Below are positions 13,876 to 19,735 of a DNA stretch of 64,000 nucleotides, piece by piece. The DNA is taken from the NCBI GenBank assembly GCA_002456975.1, contig NTKA01000001.1:1-64000 (forward strand), given 5' to 3'. The notes beneath the pieces are model-generated. The model made no database searches. It saw only the letters and a list, made by a program, of their open reading frames with translations, and was not told where the DNA came from. The DNA comes from Halieaceae bacterium MED-G27 (lineage in GTDB: Bacteria > Pseudomonadota > Gammaproteobacteria > Pseudomonadales > Halieaceae). The position numbers and the translations under genes are program-made. Positions within the stretch are counted from its first letter, which is position 1. Each line of letters begins with the position of its first letter.

Positions 13876-14137
13876 TAGTAGATTTACGGTTAGCGACACC
13901 CGCTACCCGCCGGCCAAATCGAGCTCTACCAATTGCCCAGGAGCTAAAGCCCAGCGCAACCGTGGCACCGACAATGAAACTAGCGATCAACCAGATACCC
14001 AAAGGCCGGGGTGTCAATGCTATAAACAACAAATCCAGCGGGACTGGCGTCGCGTTTTGGACAGTCAATACAGCGCCAGTCGCTATGGACGCAATAAGCA
14101 CCAAAGTGACCGATAAACCACGCAACCATCGCAGCAT
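13868..14137 (-). CDS. lapA: Lipopolysaccharide assembly protein A (DUF1049)
   Basis: An 89-residue protein with two membrane segments (about 6-26 and 44-67) joined by the conserved NATPVPLDLLF loop region of the LapA/YciS family. It is a small inner-membrane partner of LapB. Its ATG overlaps the ihfB stop (TAATG), and its 3' end overlaps lapB, so the three genes are translationally linked. Confidence 0.93.
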   Translation of the reverse strand: MLRWLRGLSVTLVLIASIATGAVLTVQNATPVPLDLLFIALTPRPLGIWLIASFIVGATVALGFSSWAIGRARFGRRVAGVANRKSTND

Positions 14138-14433
14138 TAGAAGACCGATTTAACGGCTCGATTGACCCGCTCGCGCAGCTCCTTGCCCGGCTTGAAGTGA
14201 GGAACATATTTTCCAGTCAAATCAACCGTGTCGCCTGTCTTGGGATTCCGACCTTGACGCGGCTCGCGGTAGTGCAGAGAGAAGCTACCGAAACCTCTGA
14301 TCTCAATGCGCTCGCCCGAAGACAGCGACTGCGCCATGTGATCGATCATAAGCTTAACCGCCAACTCCACATCCTTAGTAGTGAGCTGCGACTGTTGCGA
14401 TGCCATTAAATCGATAAGTTCGCTTCTAGTCAT
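14137..14433 (-). CDS. ihfB: Integration host factor beta subunit
   Basis: The start at 14433 gives MTRSELID and 98 residues, close to the family size; an in-frame upstream ATG would add 11 atypical residues. The DNA-binding arm is visible as [20 protein letters not shown], and [11 protein letters not shown] is the conserved core. IHF is a heterodimeric DNA-bending protein. Its gene usually follows rpsA directly, but here a three-gene insertion (14560-17955) separates them. Confidence 0.95.
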
Positions 14434-14559
14434 GTCAGGTATCCCTTTGAAGTCCCCATTGTCCACAGGGTCTCCTCACCACGCAACCGCATTTGCGAAA
14501 ACCACGCCGAATAAGATGGGAAGGCCCGAGCCAAGGATGTGACTACCTAACCTGTTTAC

Positions 14560-16431
14560 CTAACCCAGGGATTTAAGAAAGCTCGTAAGGTCTTCTATCG
14601 ATAACGGTTTGGTCAATACGCCCTGAAATCCCATTGCCTTGAATTCGGCAATTGCGTCGGTATTGGCATTGGCTGTGCAAGCGAATACGCGAGCCCCCTC
14701 GCTTTCGCCCGCGTCTTGAGTCACCCAGTCCAACAAGTCGATTCCCGAAAACTCAGGCATTTGAATATCAGTAATGAGCACATCAAAACGCTCTGATCTC
14801 AGCTTAGTAATACCCTCTGTCGCTGAACTGACAACCTCATGTGAGACACCCAGCCTGTCCAGCATTGCTGTCATCACCAATTGATTGGTGATGCTGTCTT
14901 CAACATAGAGGAAGCGACGCTGCTCAGGTGGTAATGGTGCGGCCTCCTTATCTCGAATCCCTGACAGTAAAGCCTCGGAGCGCTCAACCGCATCACTTTT
15001 AGCCAGCCGTATCGAGAAATCAAATACGCTCCCCACACCGACCTCACTGCTGACATTGAGACGGGAAAACATCGCCTCTGAGATGCGCTTCACGATATTG
15101 AGGCCCAGTCCGGTACCGGAAAACTTGCGATTTAACCCTTCCGCCGCCTGAAAGTAAGGCTCGTCGATTCGCTTTACGTCCTCGGGAGATATTCCCATAC
15201 CCGTATCGACCACAGCAAATAAAACTTCAGCATCAATAGGACTATCTTGTAAGGCACTAGCCTCGAAGGTCACCGAACCTGTGTTGGTAAACTTTCTGGC
15301 GTTGCCCAACAAATTGATGAGCACCTGTGCAAGACGATTCGGATCGACCATCACCCAAATCGGTGAAGGGAGGTCGTTCTGAATGACGAACTCAACGTCG
15401 CTATCGCCGAATAAAGTGTTGATTGTAGAGCCGATTCCAGAAACAAAATGCCGCAGCTCGATCGCCTCCTCCTTGAGAACAACCGACTCTTGCTCCCAAC
15501 GCTGGAAATCGAGAAGCTCGTTGATAAGCAGTAACAACGTCTTCGCGCCCCGTTTGGCGATGACGAGATATTCTCCGTTCTCTTTGGTTTGCTGCTCCGC
15601 TGACATCAAATCCAGAGAAGCAATAATACTGTGAAGCGGTGTTCTTAACTCGTGACTCACACTCGCGGTAAACGAGTCCTTAGCTTCCAGTGCTTTGGTT
15701 AACTCGGCAGTTCGCTCTTCAACCGTGTCTTCTAGAGACGCGAGAATTCGGCGATTTTCTCGGTTCTTCAAGCGTAGATTGGTTTTTAGTCGACGCAGAC
15801 TGGATGCCAGTTGGCCAATCTCGTCGTCACGATTGTGCTTCCGTAGCGCACCCTGATAATCCTCGCGACCCAGCCGATCAGCAATCCCCCCCGCCTCGAT
15901 AATAGGAAGCAGTACGCGGACCGATAGTTGTCGAGCATAAATAATCTGAAGCGCCAGAAAAATTAGAAATGCCGCATATAGTGGCGTGTTTAGAGCTTCA
16001 ACTCGTTGTGATATCGAGGTCGTCTCGATCATCACCACCACAGTACCCTCAAGGATCGTTGTGCTGACGGGCTGCCTCGCAACGAGGTAGCGCTCGCTAT
16101 CGATATCGGCCGTCGTAACATCTGAATCACCGGGAAAAACAGCAAAGAGCTCCGCGTCGTCTTCGAAGCCGCTGATGATGGCAACTGTAAGGTTTCGGGG
16201 GTCGTCCCTAACCGAAGAGTTTAGCCCTGCAAGTGCTTCGAGATCCTCTTGCTCGAGCGCTGACGTAACACTCACCGCATAGGCTGCGGCTAAACTGCTA
16301 AGCTCGGCCGTGGCGCTGGCTTCGAGCTCTTGGCGTTGACCATTGGGAACAACATAAATTAGGAGGGCGCCAACGATCGCGGTAACAACAGCGGTGAGAC
16401 CGACGAACTGAAAAAGTAGGGAGCGCGTCAC
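14560..16431 (-). CDS. Membrane hybrid sensor histidine kinase with receiver domain
   Basis: The 623-residue protein has a transmembrane helix (about 7-28), a periplasmic domain (about 30-150) and a second helix (about 151-166). A HAMP-like linker, then HisKA with H260 in SHELRTP, HATPase with VDTGMGI and GTGLGLNI, and a receiver domain with phospho-acceptor D555 in LITDIQMPE follow. No Hpt domain or output regulator lies nearby, so the phosphorelay partner is elsewhere. Its ATG overlaps the end of the PstS-like gene by four bases, suggesting the small periplasmic protein feeds ligand information to the kinase (inference). Neither signal nor target can be read from sequence. Confidence 0.92.
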   Translation of the reverse strand: MTRSLLFQFVGLTAVVTAIVGALLIYVVPNGQRQELEASATAELSSLAAAYAVSVTSALEQEDLEALAGLNSSVRDDPRNLTVAIISGFEDDAELFAVFPGDSDVTTADIDSERYLVARQPVSTTILEGTVVVMIETTSISQRVEALNTPLYAAFLIFLALQIIYARQLSVRVLLPIIEAGGIADRLGREDYQGALRKHNRDDEIGQLASSLRRLKTNLRLKNRENRRILASLEDTVEERTAELTKALEAKDSFTASVSHELRTPLHSIIASLDLMSAEQQTKENGEYLVIAKRGAKTLLLLINELLDFQRWEQESVVLKEEAIELRHFVSGIGSTINTLFGDSDVEFVIQNDLPSPIWVMVDPNRLAQVLINLLGNARKFTNTGSVTFEASALQDSPIDAEVLFAVVDTGMGISPEDVKRIDEPYFQAAEGLNRKFSGTGLGLNIVKRISEAMFSRLNVSSEVGVGSVFDFSIRLAKSDAVERSEALLSGIRDKEAAPLPPEQRRFLYVEDSITNQLVMTAMLDRLGVSHEVVSSATEGITKLRSERFDVLITDIQMPEFSGIDLLDWVTQDAGESEGARVFACTANANTDAIAEFKAMGFQGVLTKPLSIEDLTSFLKSLG

Positions 16432-16868
16432 GAGGTCGGAATGACTTGGACACTGCCGCTGACGTTCGGCTCCGTATCGGAAATCACCACACCGACCGCA
16501 CCCTCATACTCGTTGATCCAGCTAACAATTTGCTCGTCCGAATCAAAATATTTAGGCGCGTTCACTCGACCACCAAAAACCAACCGAAACCATGTCCGTT
16601 GCATGATGGTGCCTGATGTCTGGAAAATCATCTCTGCTGTTTTGTCGTAGTTAATGGAATTTCTAGAGGGCAATACAACAGTCGCAGCCTGACCAGAATC
16701 CCAGTTACGTCGCTGACCTCTCAACAACGCTTTTGCCGAATCCTCGGAGACTTCCGCACTCGATGGTGCGTTAACAAGGATGTAAACCTGCTCATCAGCC
16801 GCACGCGACACGCCACTCGCCCATGCGAGTGCCAGTCCTACGAGGGTGATAAGCAGATACTTCGGCAT
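16428..16868 (-). CDS. Short PstS-like periplasmic substrate-binding protein
   Basis: A 146-residue protein with a cleavable signal peptide (about 1-23, ending SRAAD). The rest matches a truncated phosphate-binding-protein type domain, with AKALLRGQRRNWDSG and a late VSWINEYEGAVGVV, the pattern of small PstS-like proteins common in marine gammaproteobacteria. No ABC transporter genes are nearby, so it probably works as a sensor accessory, not a transport receptor (inference). It starts two bases past the porin gene stop and overlaps the kinase gene by four bases. Ligand unknown. Confidence 0.7.
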   Translation of the reverse strand: MPKYLLITLVGLALAWASGVSRAADEQVYILVNAPSSAEVSEDSAKALLRGQRRNWDSGQAATVVLPSRNSINYDKTAEMIFQTSGTIMQRTWFRLVFGGRVNAPKYFDSDEQIVSWINEYEGAVGVVISDTEPNVSGSVQVIPTS

Positions 16869-16869
16869 C

Positions 16870-17955
16870 TCAGAACCCGAAACTTATCTGGACCTGAATT
16901 TCGGTATCGTCGCGATGACCATCTGTGTGCGCATGACGCGATCGCAGCTCCGACTTCACGGAGATATTTTCACGGGCGAACCACTCGAGACCCACCCCCA
17001 TTCGTTTATCGATTCCAGAAGCGAAGTGAATTTCATCGTCGCCGACATTAACGTAGTAGAGCAGTAGGTATGCCATCAGCGAATCGGTTAGTCGGCGGCC
17101 AAGGTACTGAAAAGCCGACTGGTTCCAGTCGCCCGAGTCCGTTCGATTCGCAGACAATTCAGTGAGTGCCCGCCAGTCGCCCGAGTCCCAATAAGCCGAC
17201 CAGGACAGCATCTCGTAGGGGATATCCGCATTGCCATCGCCCATGGCGTCGTGCATTTCATGGTCATCATCCATGTGGCCATGCCCCATATCATCCATAC
17301 CATGATGTCCGCCATGGCTATGAAAGGGGTTATTTAAGTGATCAAGAATCTCATCGCGGTAGTAGCTCATCCTCGTCGTGAGTTCAGCATTAGGGGTCCA
17401 AGTCAGTGATGCGGTGTAAGACTTAACGCCGCGTGCAAACAAGTCATCCCCTTCAGACTGCCCTGTCCCAAGAACCACATCGTAGCCAAAGCCTGTGATA
17501 TCGGTGGGCTGGCCGCTGAGGCGTATACCCGCCTCGTGAACTGGAATAAAGCGGCCAAACACCAGTGGTCTGTTAATAGTGGGGTAGAAGAAGCGACCGT
17601 GATGGTAGCTGTCATTCCAATAGTTCACGGGCGTGTGCATCTTACCGATACTAATCGCGTGGTCACGGTTGAGCTCATAGCGGAGCCGAATGCGTTCGAG
17701 CGTTAGCTGATCCTCACGGTACTCCTGTGCCTGAAACGTACTCTCCGCCAGAAACGAGAGCTTGTCGGACAGATTACCCGTCAAAAACAGCGCAGATTCA
17801 CCCCACGCAGCTTCGCGATCAGATGCTCTCGCTGCATCAGAATTGGTGAGTTCCATGTGAGAGAAAAAATTGGCGTTGATGTCCTGCGCCTCAGTGTACC
17901 CAGCAGTAAAGCCGGCACTAAGCGCTACTAATGGCACCACTACTATTTTTTTCAT
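16870..17955 (-). CDS. Outer-membrane porin-like beta-barrel with His/Met/Asp-rich loop
   Basis: The ATG at 17955 gives a signal peptide (MKKIVVVPLVALSAG..., cleaved near residue 23) and 361 residues; the longer frame adds 16 unlikely residues. Alternating amphipathic segments and the C-terminal IQVQISFGF with terminal Phe are outer-membrane barrel signs. Residues 212-239 form a predicted loop with eight His, five Met and six Asp, suggesting metal binding. It is the first gene of the porin/PstS-like/kinase group, after the rpsA terminator. I infer a regulated outer-membrane uptake or sensing role; substrate unknown. Confidence 0.78.
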   Translation of the reverse strand: MKKIVVVPLVALSAGFTAGYTEAQDINANFFSHMELTNSDAARASDREAAWGESALFLTGNLSDKLSFLAESTFQAQEYREDQLTLERIRLRYELNRDHAISIGKMHTPVNYWNDSYHHGRFFYPTINRPLVFGRFIPVHEAGIRLSGQPTDITGFGYDVVLGTGQSEGDDLFARGVKSYTASLTWTPNAELTTRMSYYRDEILDHLNNPFHSHGGHHGMDDMGHGHMDDDHEMHDAMGDGNADIPYEMLSWSAYWDSGDWRALTELSANRTDSGDWNQSAFQYLGRRLTDSLMAYLLLYYVNVGDDEIHFASGIDKRMGVGLEWFARENISVKSELRSRHAHTDGHRDDTEIQVQISFGF

Positions 17956-18006: not shown

Positions 18007-18036
18007 AAAAAAAAAGCCGGCGAGTGCCGGCTTTTT
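18007..18036 (-). terminator. Rho-independent terminator downstream of rpsA
   Basis: A six-bp GC stem (gccggc / gccggc) with loop gagt is extended by A/T pairs. On the minus strand it is followed by a run of T residues. It lies about 25 bases past the rpsA stop and so separates rpsA from the porin-kinase group. Confidence 0.9.
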
Positions 18037-18061: not shown

Positions 18062-19735
18062 TCACTGCTCATCCATCTGAGCCTTGATCAAATCACCAAT
18101 AGTACCAGGCGATGCTACGTCGTCCTGCTGCTTGAGAGACTCCACTGCTTCCTTCTCATCATCCACGTCCTTGGCTTTTATGGAGAGACCAATCGAGCGC
18201 GTCTTTCGGTCAACCGCTACGATCTTCGCTTCTACCTTGTCACCAACACTGAGGACTGAACGAGCATCCTCGGTGCGATCACGGCTGATATCAGCCACCT
18301 TCAGGTAACCCTCGGTCTCTTCATTCAACTTAATGTTGGCGCCCTTGGCATCCACCTCGGTAACCTCACCGATCACAATGGCGCCTTTGTCGTTCTCTGC
18401 GAGGTAGACAGTGAACGAATCTTCCTCAAGTTGCTTGATGCCCAAAGAGATTCGCTCGCGCTCAGGATCGATGCTGAGAATAACCGTCTCGATCTCATCG
18501 CCCTTCTTGTAATTGCGAACAGCCTCTTCGCCGGTTTCATTCCAGCTGATGTCGCTCAGGTGCACCAGGCCATCGATATTACCATCGAGACCGATGAAGA
18601 TACCGAAGTCAGTGATTGACTTAATAGATCCCGAAATCTTGTTGCCAATCGCGTGCTCCGCTGCGAATCCATCCCATGGGTTTTGCTGGCACTGCTTGAT
18701 GCCGAGCGAGATACGACGACGCTCCTGATCAATATCGAGAACCATCACCTCAACTTCGTCCCCTAGCTGAACAATTTTCGACGGGTGTACGTTCTTGTTG
18801 GTCCAATCCATTTCTGAAACGTGAACCAGACCTTCTACACCCTCTTCAATCTCAGCAAAGCAACCGTAATCGGTCAGATTGGTAATGCGAGCATTGGTTC
18901 GACTACCTTCAGGATAGCGGTTAGTAATTTCTATCCATGGGTCTTCACCCAACTGCTTGAGTCCGAGCGATACACGATTGCGCTCGCGGTCGAACTTCAG
19001 CACCTTCACATCCATTTCCTGGCCAACTTCAACCACCTCGCTTGGGTGCTTAATGCGCTTCCAAGCCATATCGGTAATGTGCAGTAGTCCGTCTACGCCA
19101 CCCAAGTCGACAAAAGCGCCGTAGTCGGTAAGGTTCTTGACCACCCCTTTGACGCTTTGGCCTTCCTGCAAATTTTGGAGCAACTCATCACGCTCAGCGC
19201 TGTTAGCTGCTTCCATTACCGCACGACGCGAAACAACGACATTGTTTCGCTTCTGGTCGAGCTTAATCACCTTGAATTCTAGCTCTTTGCCCTCGAGGTG
19301 CGCTGTCTCTCGAATGGGACGCACGTCGATCAGCGAGCCAGGCAGGAATGCGCGAATCGAATCGACATCAACAGTGAAACCGCCCTTCACCTTGCCATTG
19401 ATAACGCCCATGACCACTTCTTGCGCAACGTGTGCGGCCTCAAGCGTCTTCCATGCTTCAGCGCGCTTAGCCTTTTCCCGTGACAACTTGGTTTCACCAA
19501 AGCCATCCTCAACGGATTCCAGCGCCACCTGCACTTCGTCACCAACGCTCAGCGTGCATTCGCCACTCGCGTTAGTAAATTGATCTCTCGGAATAACTCC
19601 TTCCGACTTGAGCCCGGCGTGAACCGTGACCCACTCGTTATCGATATCGATAACAACACCAGTGACAATAGAGCCCGGCTCCATGTCGACTGTTTTCAAA
19701 CTTTCTTCGAATAGTTCGGCGAATGATTCGCTCAT
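18062..19735 (-). CDS. rpsA: 30S ribosomal protein S1
   Basis: The start at 19735 ([13 protein letters not shown]) gives 557 residues, the same as E. coli S1; the longer frame adds 15 residues of leader. Six S1/OB-fold repeats are visible, with repeated motifs such as [19 protein letters not shown] and [21 protein letters not shown]1 binds mRNA and helps start translation on the ribosome. aaagga lies eight bases before the ATG. It follows cmk in the conserved cmk-rpsA pair. Confidence 0.97.

Follow-up and report, generated by a model that had tools for sequence, protein, structure and literature searches.

The LuxP-LuxQ and TorT-TorS systems each pair a periplasmic binding protein with a membrane hybrid kinase. 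In the YfiBNR system, YfiR links the outer-membrane protein YfiB to the receptor YfiN, and the outputs of YfiBNR-type receptors vary, including GGDEF, GGDEF-EAL, HPt, histidine kinase, and MCP forms (PMC3375315). In Pseudomonas aeruginosa, PstS stimulates the chemoreceptor CtpL (PMC4926252). We found no description in the open-access literature of the arrangement analyzed here, a trio of genes encoding a porin, a half-length PstS-like protein (half-PstS or half-SBP), and a receptor. This trio resembles YfiBNR (TpbB, Pseudomonas) in having an outer-membrane part, a small soluble periplasmic part, and a membrane receptor whose output is swappable. It resembles PstS-CtpL in pairing a PstS-family protein with a membrane receptor, on which, in the trio, we infer that the protein acts, and it shares with LuxP-LuxQ and TorT-TorS the pairing of a binding protein with a hybrid kinase. 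The trio appears to represent a means of signaling across the envelope that has not been described before, in which the tripartite organization is known and the parts are new.

The window, which is the whole 64,000-nucleotide stretch of DNA that was analyzed, comprises positions 1 to 64,000 of contig NTKA01000001.1 of Halieaceae bacterium MED-G27 (GCA_002456975.1). In the list of open reading frames, the porin gene (17955 to 16870), the gene for the small PstS-like protein (16868 to 16428), and the hybrid kinase gene (16431 to 14560) all lie on the minus strand. The gap between the first two is +1 base and that between the last two is -4 bases, the latter being a GTGA overlap, and the co-directional arrangement and spacing given by the first-pass annotation are therefore correct. 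The same annotation had described rpsA and ihfB as a conserved neighbor pair and had placed a terminator between rpsA and the trio, and both statements hold. The left partner, rpsA (18062 to 19735, minus strand; identified from its ORF and synteny), and the right partner, ihfB (14137 to 14466, minus strand; identified from its ORF and its neighbors in relatives), are directly adjacent in most genomes of the genus, with gaps of roughly 130 to 390 bp. The intrinsic terminator of rpsA, a hairpin at 18036 to 18011 on the minus strand, sits between rpsA and the porin gene, upstream of the module, and is kept in the relatives aligned. Given that most of the genus keeps rpsA and ihfB side by side, the trio has been inserted between two conserved neighbors. 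The same trio is found in 4 other genomes in identical order, at the identical site, and with near-identical spacing, and so its organization is not due to chance. About 55 bases remain between the rpsA terminator and the porin gene for any promoter. Phosphate control through a Pho box was considered and rejected, because there is no such site near the window trio. Within the window, the trio has neither a response regulator nor a transporter next to it, in agreement with the earlier observation that a regulator and a transport pump are absent, and no metal-handling genes lie near it.

The small protein is a predicted periplasmic protein of 146 amino acids with a signal peptide. It has no match in Pfam, NCBIfam, or single-sequence PDB searches, and its homology to PstS is revealed by the family profile and the fold alone, not by family libraries. 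A profile of 23 relatives matches solved PstS proteins (4exl; E value, 8e-7), and the matched stretches correspond to residues 73 to 184 of 265. The AlphaFold2 model of the small protein has a mean pLDDT of 93, and Foldseek places this model on PstS proteins that are approximately twice its length. Based on the profile match and the placement of the model on longer PstS proteins, we conclude that the small protein is a single lobe of PstS, and in the model it is the second lobe only, so that the two-lobed Venus-flytrap fold is absent. The first-pass annotation had described this protein as binding-protein-like, which is correct insofar as it is predicted to fold as a binding-protein domain, but that domain is one PstS lobe and no more. 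Compared with PstS and PBP_like_2 binding proteins, with whose second lobe it agrees in fold and sequence, the half-SBP lacks the first lobe, and the phosphate motif is not conserved: at the position aligned with the RxxGSG anion-binding motif of PstS, the 23 aligned sequences have other residues. The family instead has a new signature, W-x-R-L-V-F-x-G-R-x(3)-P, at residues 93 to 105 (16554 to 16592, minus strand). Residues G51, W93, R95, L96, V97, F98, G100, R101, and P105 are invariant in the 23 sequences.

The third gene has a GTG start that overlaps the stop of the half-SBP gene and encodes a membrane protein of 623 amino acids. Profile matches identify HisKA (15490 to 15681; E value, 1e-16), HATPase_c (15001 to 15345; 4e-21), and a C-terminal receiver (REC; 14578 to 14910; 9e-18), all on the minus strand, together with a weak match to HAMP. 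The H, N, G1, G2, Asp, and Lys motifs are intact by inspection, which confirms the earlier identification of this protein as a membrane hybrid kinase. The window kinase has no HPt domain, and the 1 HPt-bearing reading frame elsewhere in the incomplete genome belongs to another hybrid kinase. Based on the AlphaFold2 model and hydropathy, a periplasmic sensory domain lies between two transmembrane helices at approximately residues 29 to 145 (15997 to 16347, minus strand). It is modeled (pLDDT 81) with the order helix-helix-strand-strand-helix-strand-strand, which is Cache/PDC-like, and Foldseek returned only weak matches to it, the best being an integrative WalK model. CHASE8 does not match the window kinase and gives weak, sub-threshold matches in two receptors of the family. 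The sensory domain is 37% identical over 100 amino acids to that of the receptor in a GGDEF-EAL trio from another genus of the family, and the sensory domains of these two equivalent trios are homologous.

The porin is predicted to be an outer-membrane beta-barrel of 361 amino acids. Its signal peptide and C-terminal F are read from the sequence, and its only Pfam match is a sub-threshold one to BBP2, although some porins of the family exceed the Porin_O_P or Porin_4 cut-offs. It is 53 to 56% identical to the porins that four Luminiphilus-type genomes have at this site and 36 to 37% identical to porins that adjoin a GGDEF-EAL receptor. A porin profile search found no solved relative. Residues 212 to 236 (17248 to 17322, minus strand) form an insertion rich in His, Met, and Asp that is variable, yet His-rich, in close relatives and is seen in the close porin branch only; from its composition, this segment may bind metal.

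Among the genomes sampled, the half-SBP profile matches 116 of 294 from the order, 86 of 323 from the class, and 57 of 349 from the phylum, and a single genome can have as many as 13 copies. We read 89 loci, which are mostly gammaproteobacterial. The order and class samples supplied 60 of them, named contigs 23, and plasmids 6; at least 2 represent the same genome twice. A porin gene lies within two same-strand genes of the SBP gene at 81 of the 89 loci, and a signaling gene lies beside it at 66 loci on the same strand and at 70 on either strand; at some loci the SBP and porin genes have no adjoining receptor. Among genes within two positions of the SBP gene, 96 of 352 encode porins and 80 of 352 encode signaling proteins, compared with 0 and 1, respectively, of 221 genes that are four or more positions away. 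The three-gene unit described in the first-pass annotation therefore recurs, with its members together, in other genomes and at other loci. The recurring partner is a signaling receptor of variable output (hybrid or plain histidine kinase, GGDEF, GGDEF-EAL, or chemoreceptor [MCP]), so that the window kinase represents one of several alternative outputs of a wider module; gene order within the trios varies among loci. The porin gene and the gene for the one-lobe PstS-like protein form a cassette, which accompanies inner-membrane receptors of differing output.

On a tree of the half-SBPs, which is built from 139 columns and weakly resolved, at least 12 changes of output are needed, compared with ~36 in shuffles, which indicates that outputs are inherited for a time and then swapped. 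Distances between receptor N termini correlate with those between SBPs (r = 0.74) and porins (r = 0.82), while the corresponding values for receptor C termini are 0.53 and 0.56, shared species history being included in all four. The SBP and the porin thus appear from their sequences to co-diverge with the sensory end of the receptor more than with its output end, a pattern that includes shared ancestry. Some loci carry porin-SBP pairs in tandem (L137, with three copies, L129, L139, and L083). A plasmid of Alteromonas macleodii (L168, 4950 to 10348) carries SBP and porin genes as a pair beside type IV CRISPR genes, and two P. aeruginosa plasmids (L167 and L170) carry MCP-porin-SBP trios. A porin-SBP-histidine kinase trio is also present on a contig labeled Crocinitomicaceae (Bacteroidota; L149, 3956 to 7687), by transfer or by misbinning.

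Compared with the known systems, the differences lie in the parts. The soluble part of YfiBNR is YfiR, whereas that of the trio is a PstS lobe without a match to the YfiR family in Pfam, and the outer-membrane part of YfiBNR is the Pal/OmpA-like lipoprotein YfiB, whereas that of the trio is a beta-barrel porin. Because these two parts are different proteins, the trio is not a member of YfiBNR. The receptor of YfiBNR has a periplasmic PAS/CHASE8-type domain and HAMP; the window kinase has a Cache-like model, a weak HAMP match, and no CHASE8 match, and two receptors of the family match CHASE8 weakly, below threshold. In PstS-CtpL, PstS is full length and is shared with the Pst transporter, while the trio has one lobe, a porin gene, and no transporter. 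LuxP-LuxQ and TorT-TorS have two-lobed binding proteins, no porin, and other kinase sensory domains.

The interpretation that we favor, with a confidence somewhat better than even, is that the trio is a member of a widespread trans-envelope signaling module in which a porin and a half-PstS adaptor feed exchangeable receptors, following a logic like that of YfiBNR. The half-PstS protein presumably couples porin and receptor, and it would do so as a periplasmic adaptor rather than as a transport receptor. The adaptor would bind the Cache-like periplasmic domain of the receptor, and its state would be set by the porin, either through docking on the barrel or through binding of a solute that enters by way of the porin. 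For the window trio, autophosphorylation of the hybrid kinase would be switched when the occupancy of the adaptor changes, and the signal would pass to the kinase's own receiver and then to an HPt or response regulator encoded elsewhere. This interpretation draws on the recurrence of the trio, the changes of output on the half-SBP tree, the co-divergence with the receptor N terminus, the homologous sensory domains, the single PstS lobe, the tethered forms described below, and the weak CHASE8 matches, with YfiBNR and PstS-CtpL as precedents. It is weakened by the intact kinase that G060 retains without porin or SBP, by the shared species history in the correlations, by the poor resolution of the half-SBP tree, and by the loci at which no receptor adjoins the SBP and porin genes. 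We consider it rather unlikely that the trio instead works by ligand delivery, with the porin admitting a small anion (phosphate, polyphosphate, or organic phosphate) that the half-SBP binds, perhaps as a dimer, so that the SBP, once loaded, switches on the receptor in the way that PstS activates CtpL. The PstS homology of the small protein fits such a scheme, as do the activation of CtpL by PstS in P. aeruginosa (PMC4926252), the one family porin (L023) that passes the Porin_O_P cut-off, and the SBP gene found just upstream of phoB-phoR at one locus (L254). However, a single lobe has no Venus-flytrap cleft, the alignment does not retain the RxxGSG motif, the window trio has no Pho box near it, and the receptor types are widely different.

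The first-pass annotation had proposed a self-contained sense-and-uptake module. Self-contained sensing is well supported, but uptake is without support, as the loci inspected did not show an inner-membrane transporter as a recurring neighbor. It is accordingly improbable that nutrient uptake is the role of the porin and SBP, with the kinase regulating their expression: although the porin and binding-protein homologies and the co-directional, coupled genes are what such an operon would have, a recurring inner-membrane transporter is lacking at the trio loci examined, and the outputs include chemoreceptors and c-di-GMP enzymes, not transcription regulators. An equally improbable explanation is a sensor of metal or envelope stress, in which the His/Met/Asp-rich segment of the porin binds metal, or the barrel reports the state of the outer membrane, with relay to the kinase. 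The His-rich insertion in the porins of close relatives and the proposal that YfiB is a sensor of envelope integrity (PMC3375315) are consistent with this, but the insertion was seen in the close porin branch alone and there are no metal-handling genes nearby.

Within the family, some half-SBP domains are tethered. In three genomes (L251, 1731 to 3437; L252, 3483 to 5174; L253, 2741 to 4765), the SBP domain forms the C terminus of a protein and is preceded by a DnaJ-like region, a single transmembrane helix, and a long linker; in a fourth genome (L254), it comes after a transmembrane helix and a linker. A porin gene adjoins each of the four genes. An SBP domain on a long periplasmic linker, encoded next to a porin, suggests that the target of the domain is at the outer membrane. 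A tentative reading, which we regard as possible but doubtful, is that these systems are an undescribed class of trans-envelope signaling with the porin itself as the sensor. The single PstS lobe would then attach to the barrel and relay the occupancy of the pore, or the flux through it, to interchangeable receptors in the inner membrane; in some genomes it would do so from the end of a tethered, TonB-like protein. At L254 (1164 to 5892), the genes for the porin, the TM-linker-SBP protein, phoB, and phoR follow one another in one gene run, which is a possible link to phosphate and a single but notable case. Long SBP reading frames had also been considered as SBP-receptor fusions, a reading that was rejected: several are reading frames extended too far in GC-rich DNA, and the membrane-tethered forms account for four.

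Many proteobacterial genomes encode small proteins annotated as "phosphate ABC transporter substrate-binding proteins" that have no transporter with them, with up to 13 each in the groups sampled. If half-SBPs are adaptors between porins and receptors, as in the module that we favor, this annotation is misleading, and many orphan c-di-GMP enzymes, chemoreceptors, and kinases would have in common an input that can be tested. Sensing of the exterior through a porin coupled to a signaling pathway would, if true, also be unusual for a Gram-negative cell.

The named near relatives of the window locus carry the labels Luminiphilus and Halieaceae, and on this basis the genus is taken to be Luminiphilus. 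Of 57 genomes searched in the genus, the SBP occurs in 5, and it is these 5 that have the porin, one porin relic aside. In a tree of rpsA and ihfB in which 48 genomes were placed, one fully supported clade of 16 holds all five trios. In the rest of this clade, deletion remnants are left in five genomes, G060 has just the kinase, one further genome has a kinase fragment where its contig ends, and the site is empty in four, as it is in all 32 genomes beyond the clade. The tree alone does not separate gain from loss, but the deletion remnants do, and they indicate loss. A recent foreign insertion was rejected: the GC content is like that of the surroundings, and no boundary repeats of a mobile element stand out. 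A single older insertion, followed by repeated loss, is favored and explains the distribution of the trio in the genus. In G071 (L207, 4683 to 4994), a deletion scar between rpsA and ihfB fuses the first ~80 residues of the porin to the last 27 of the kinase. The single-contig genome G060 (L208, 4464 to 6341) has lost the porin and SBP and keeps an intact kinase at the site, which suggests that the receptor may work without them.
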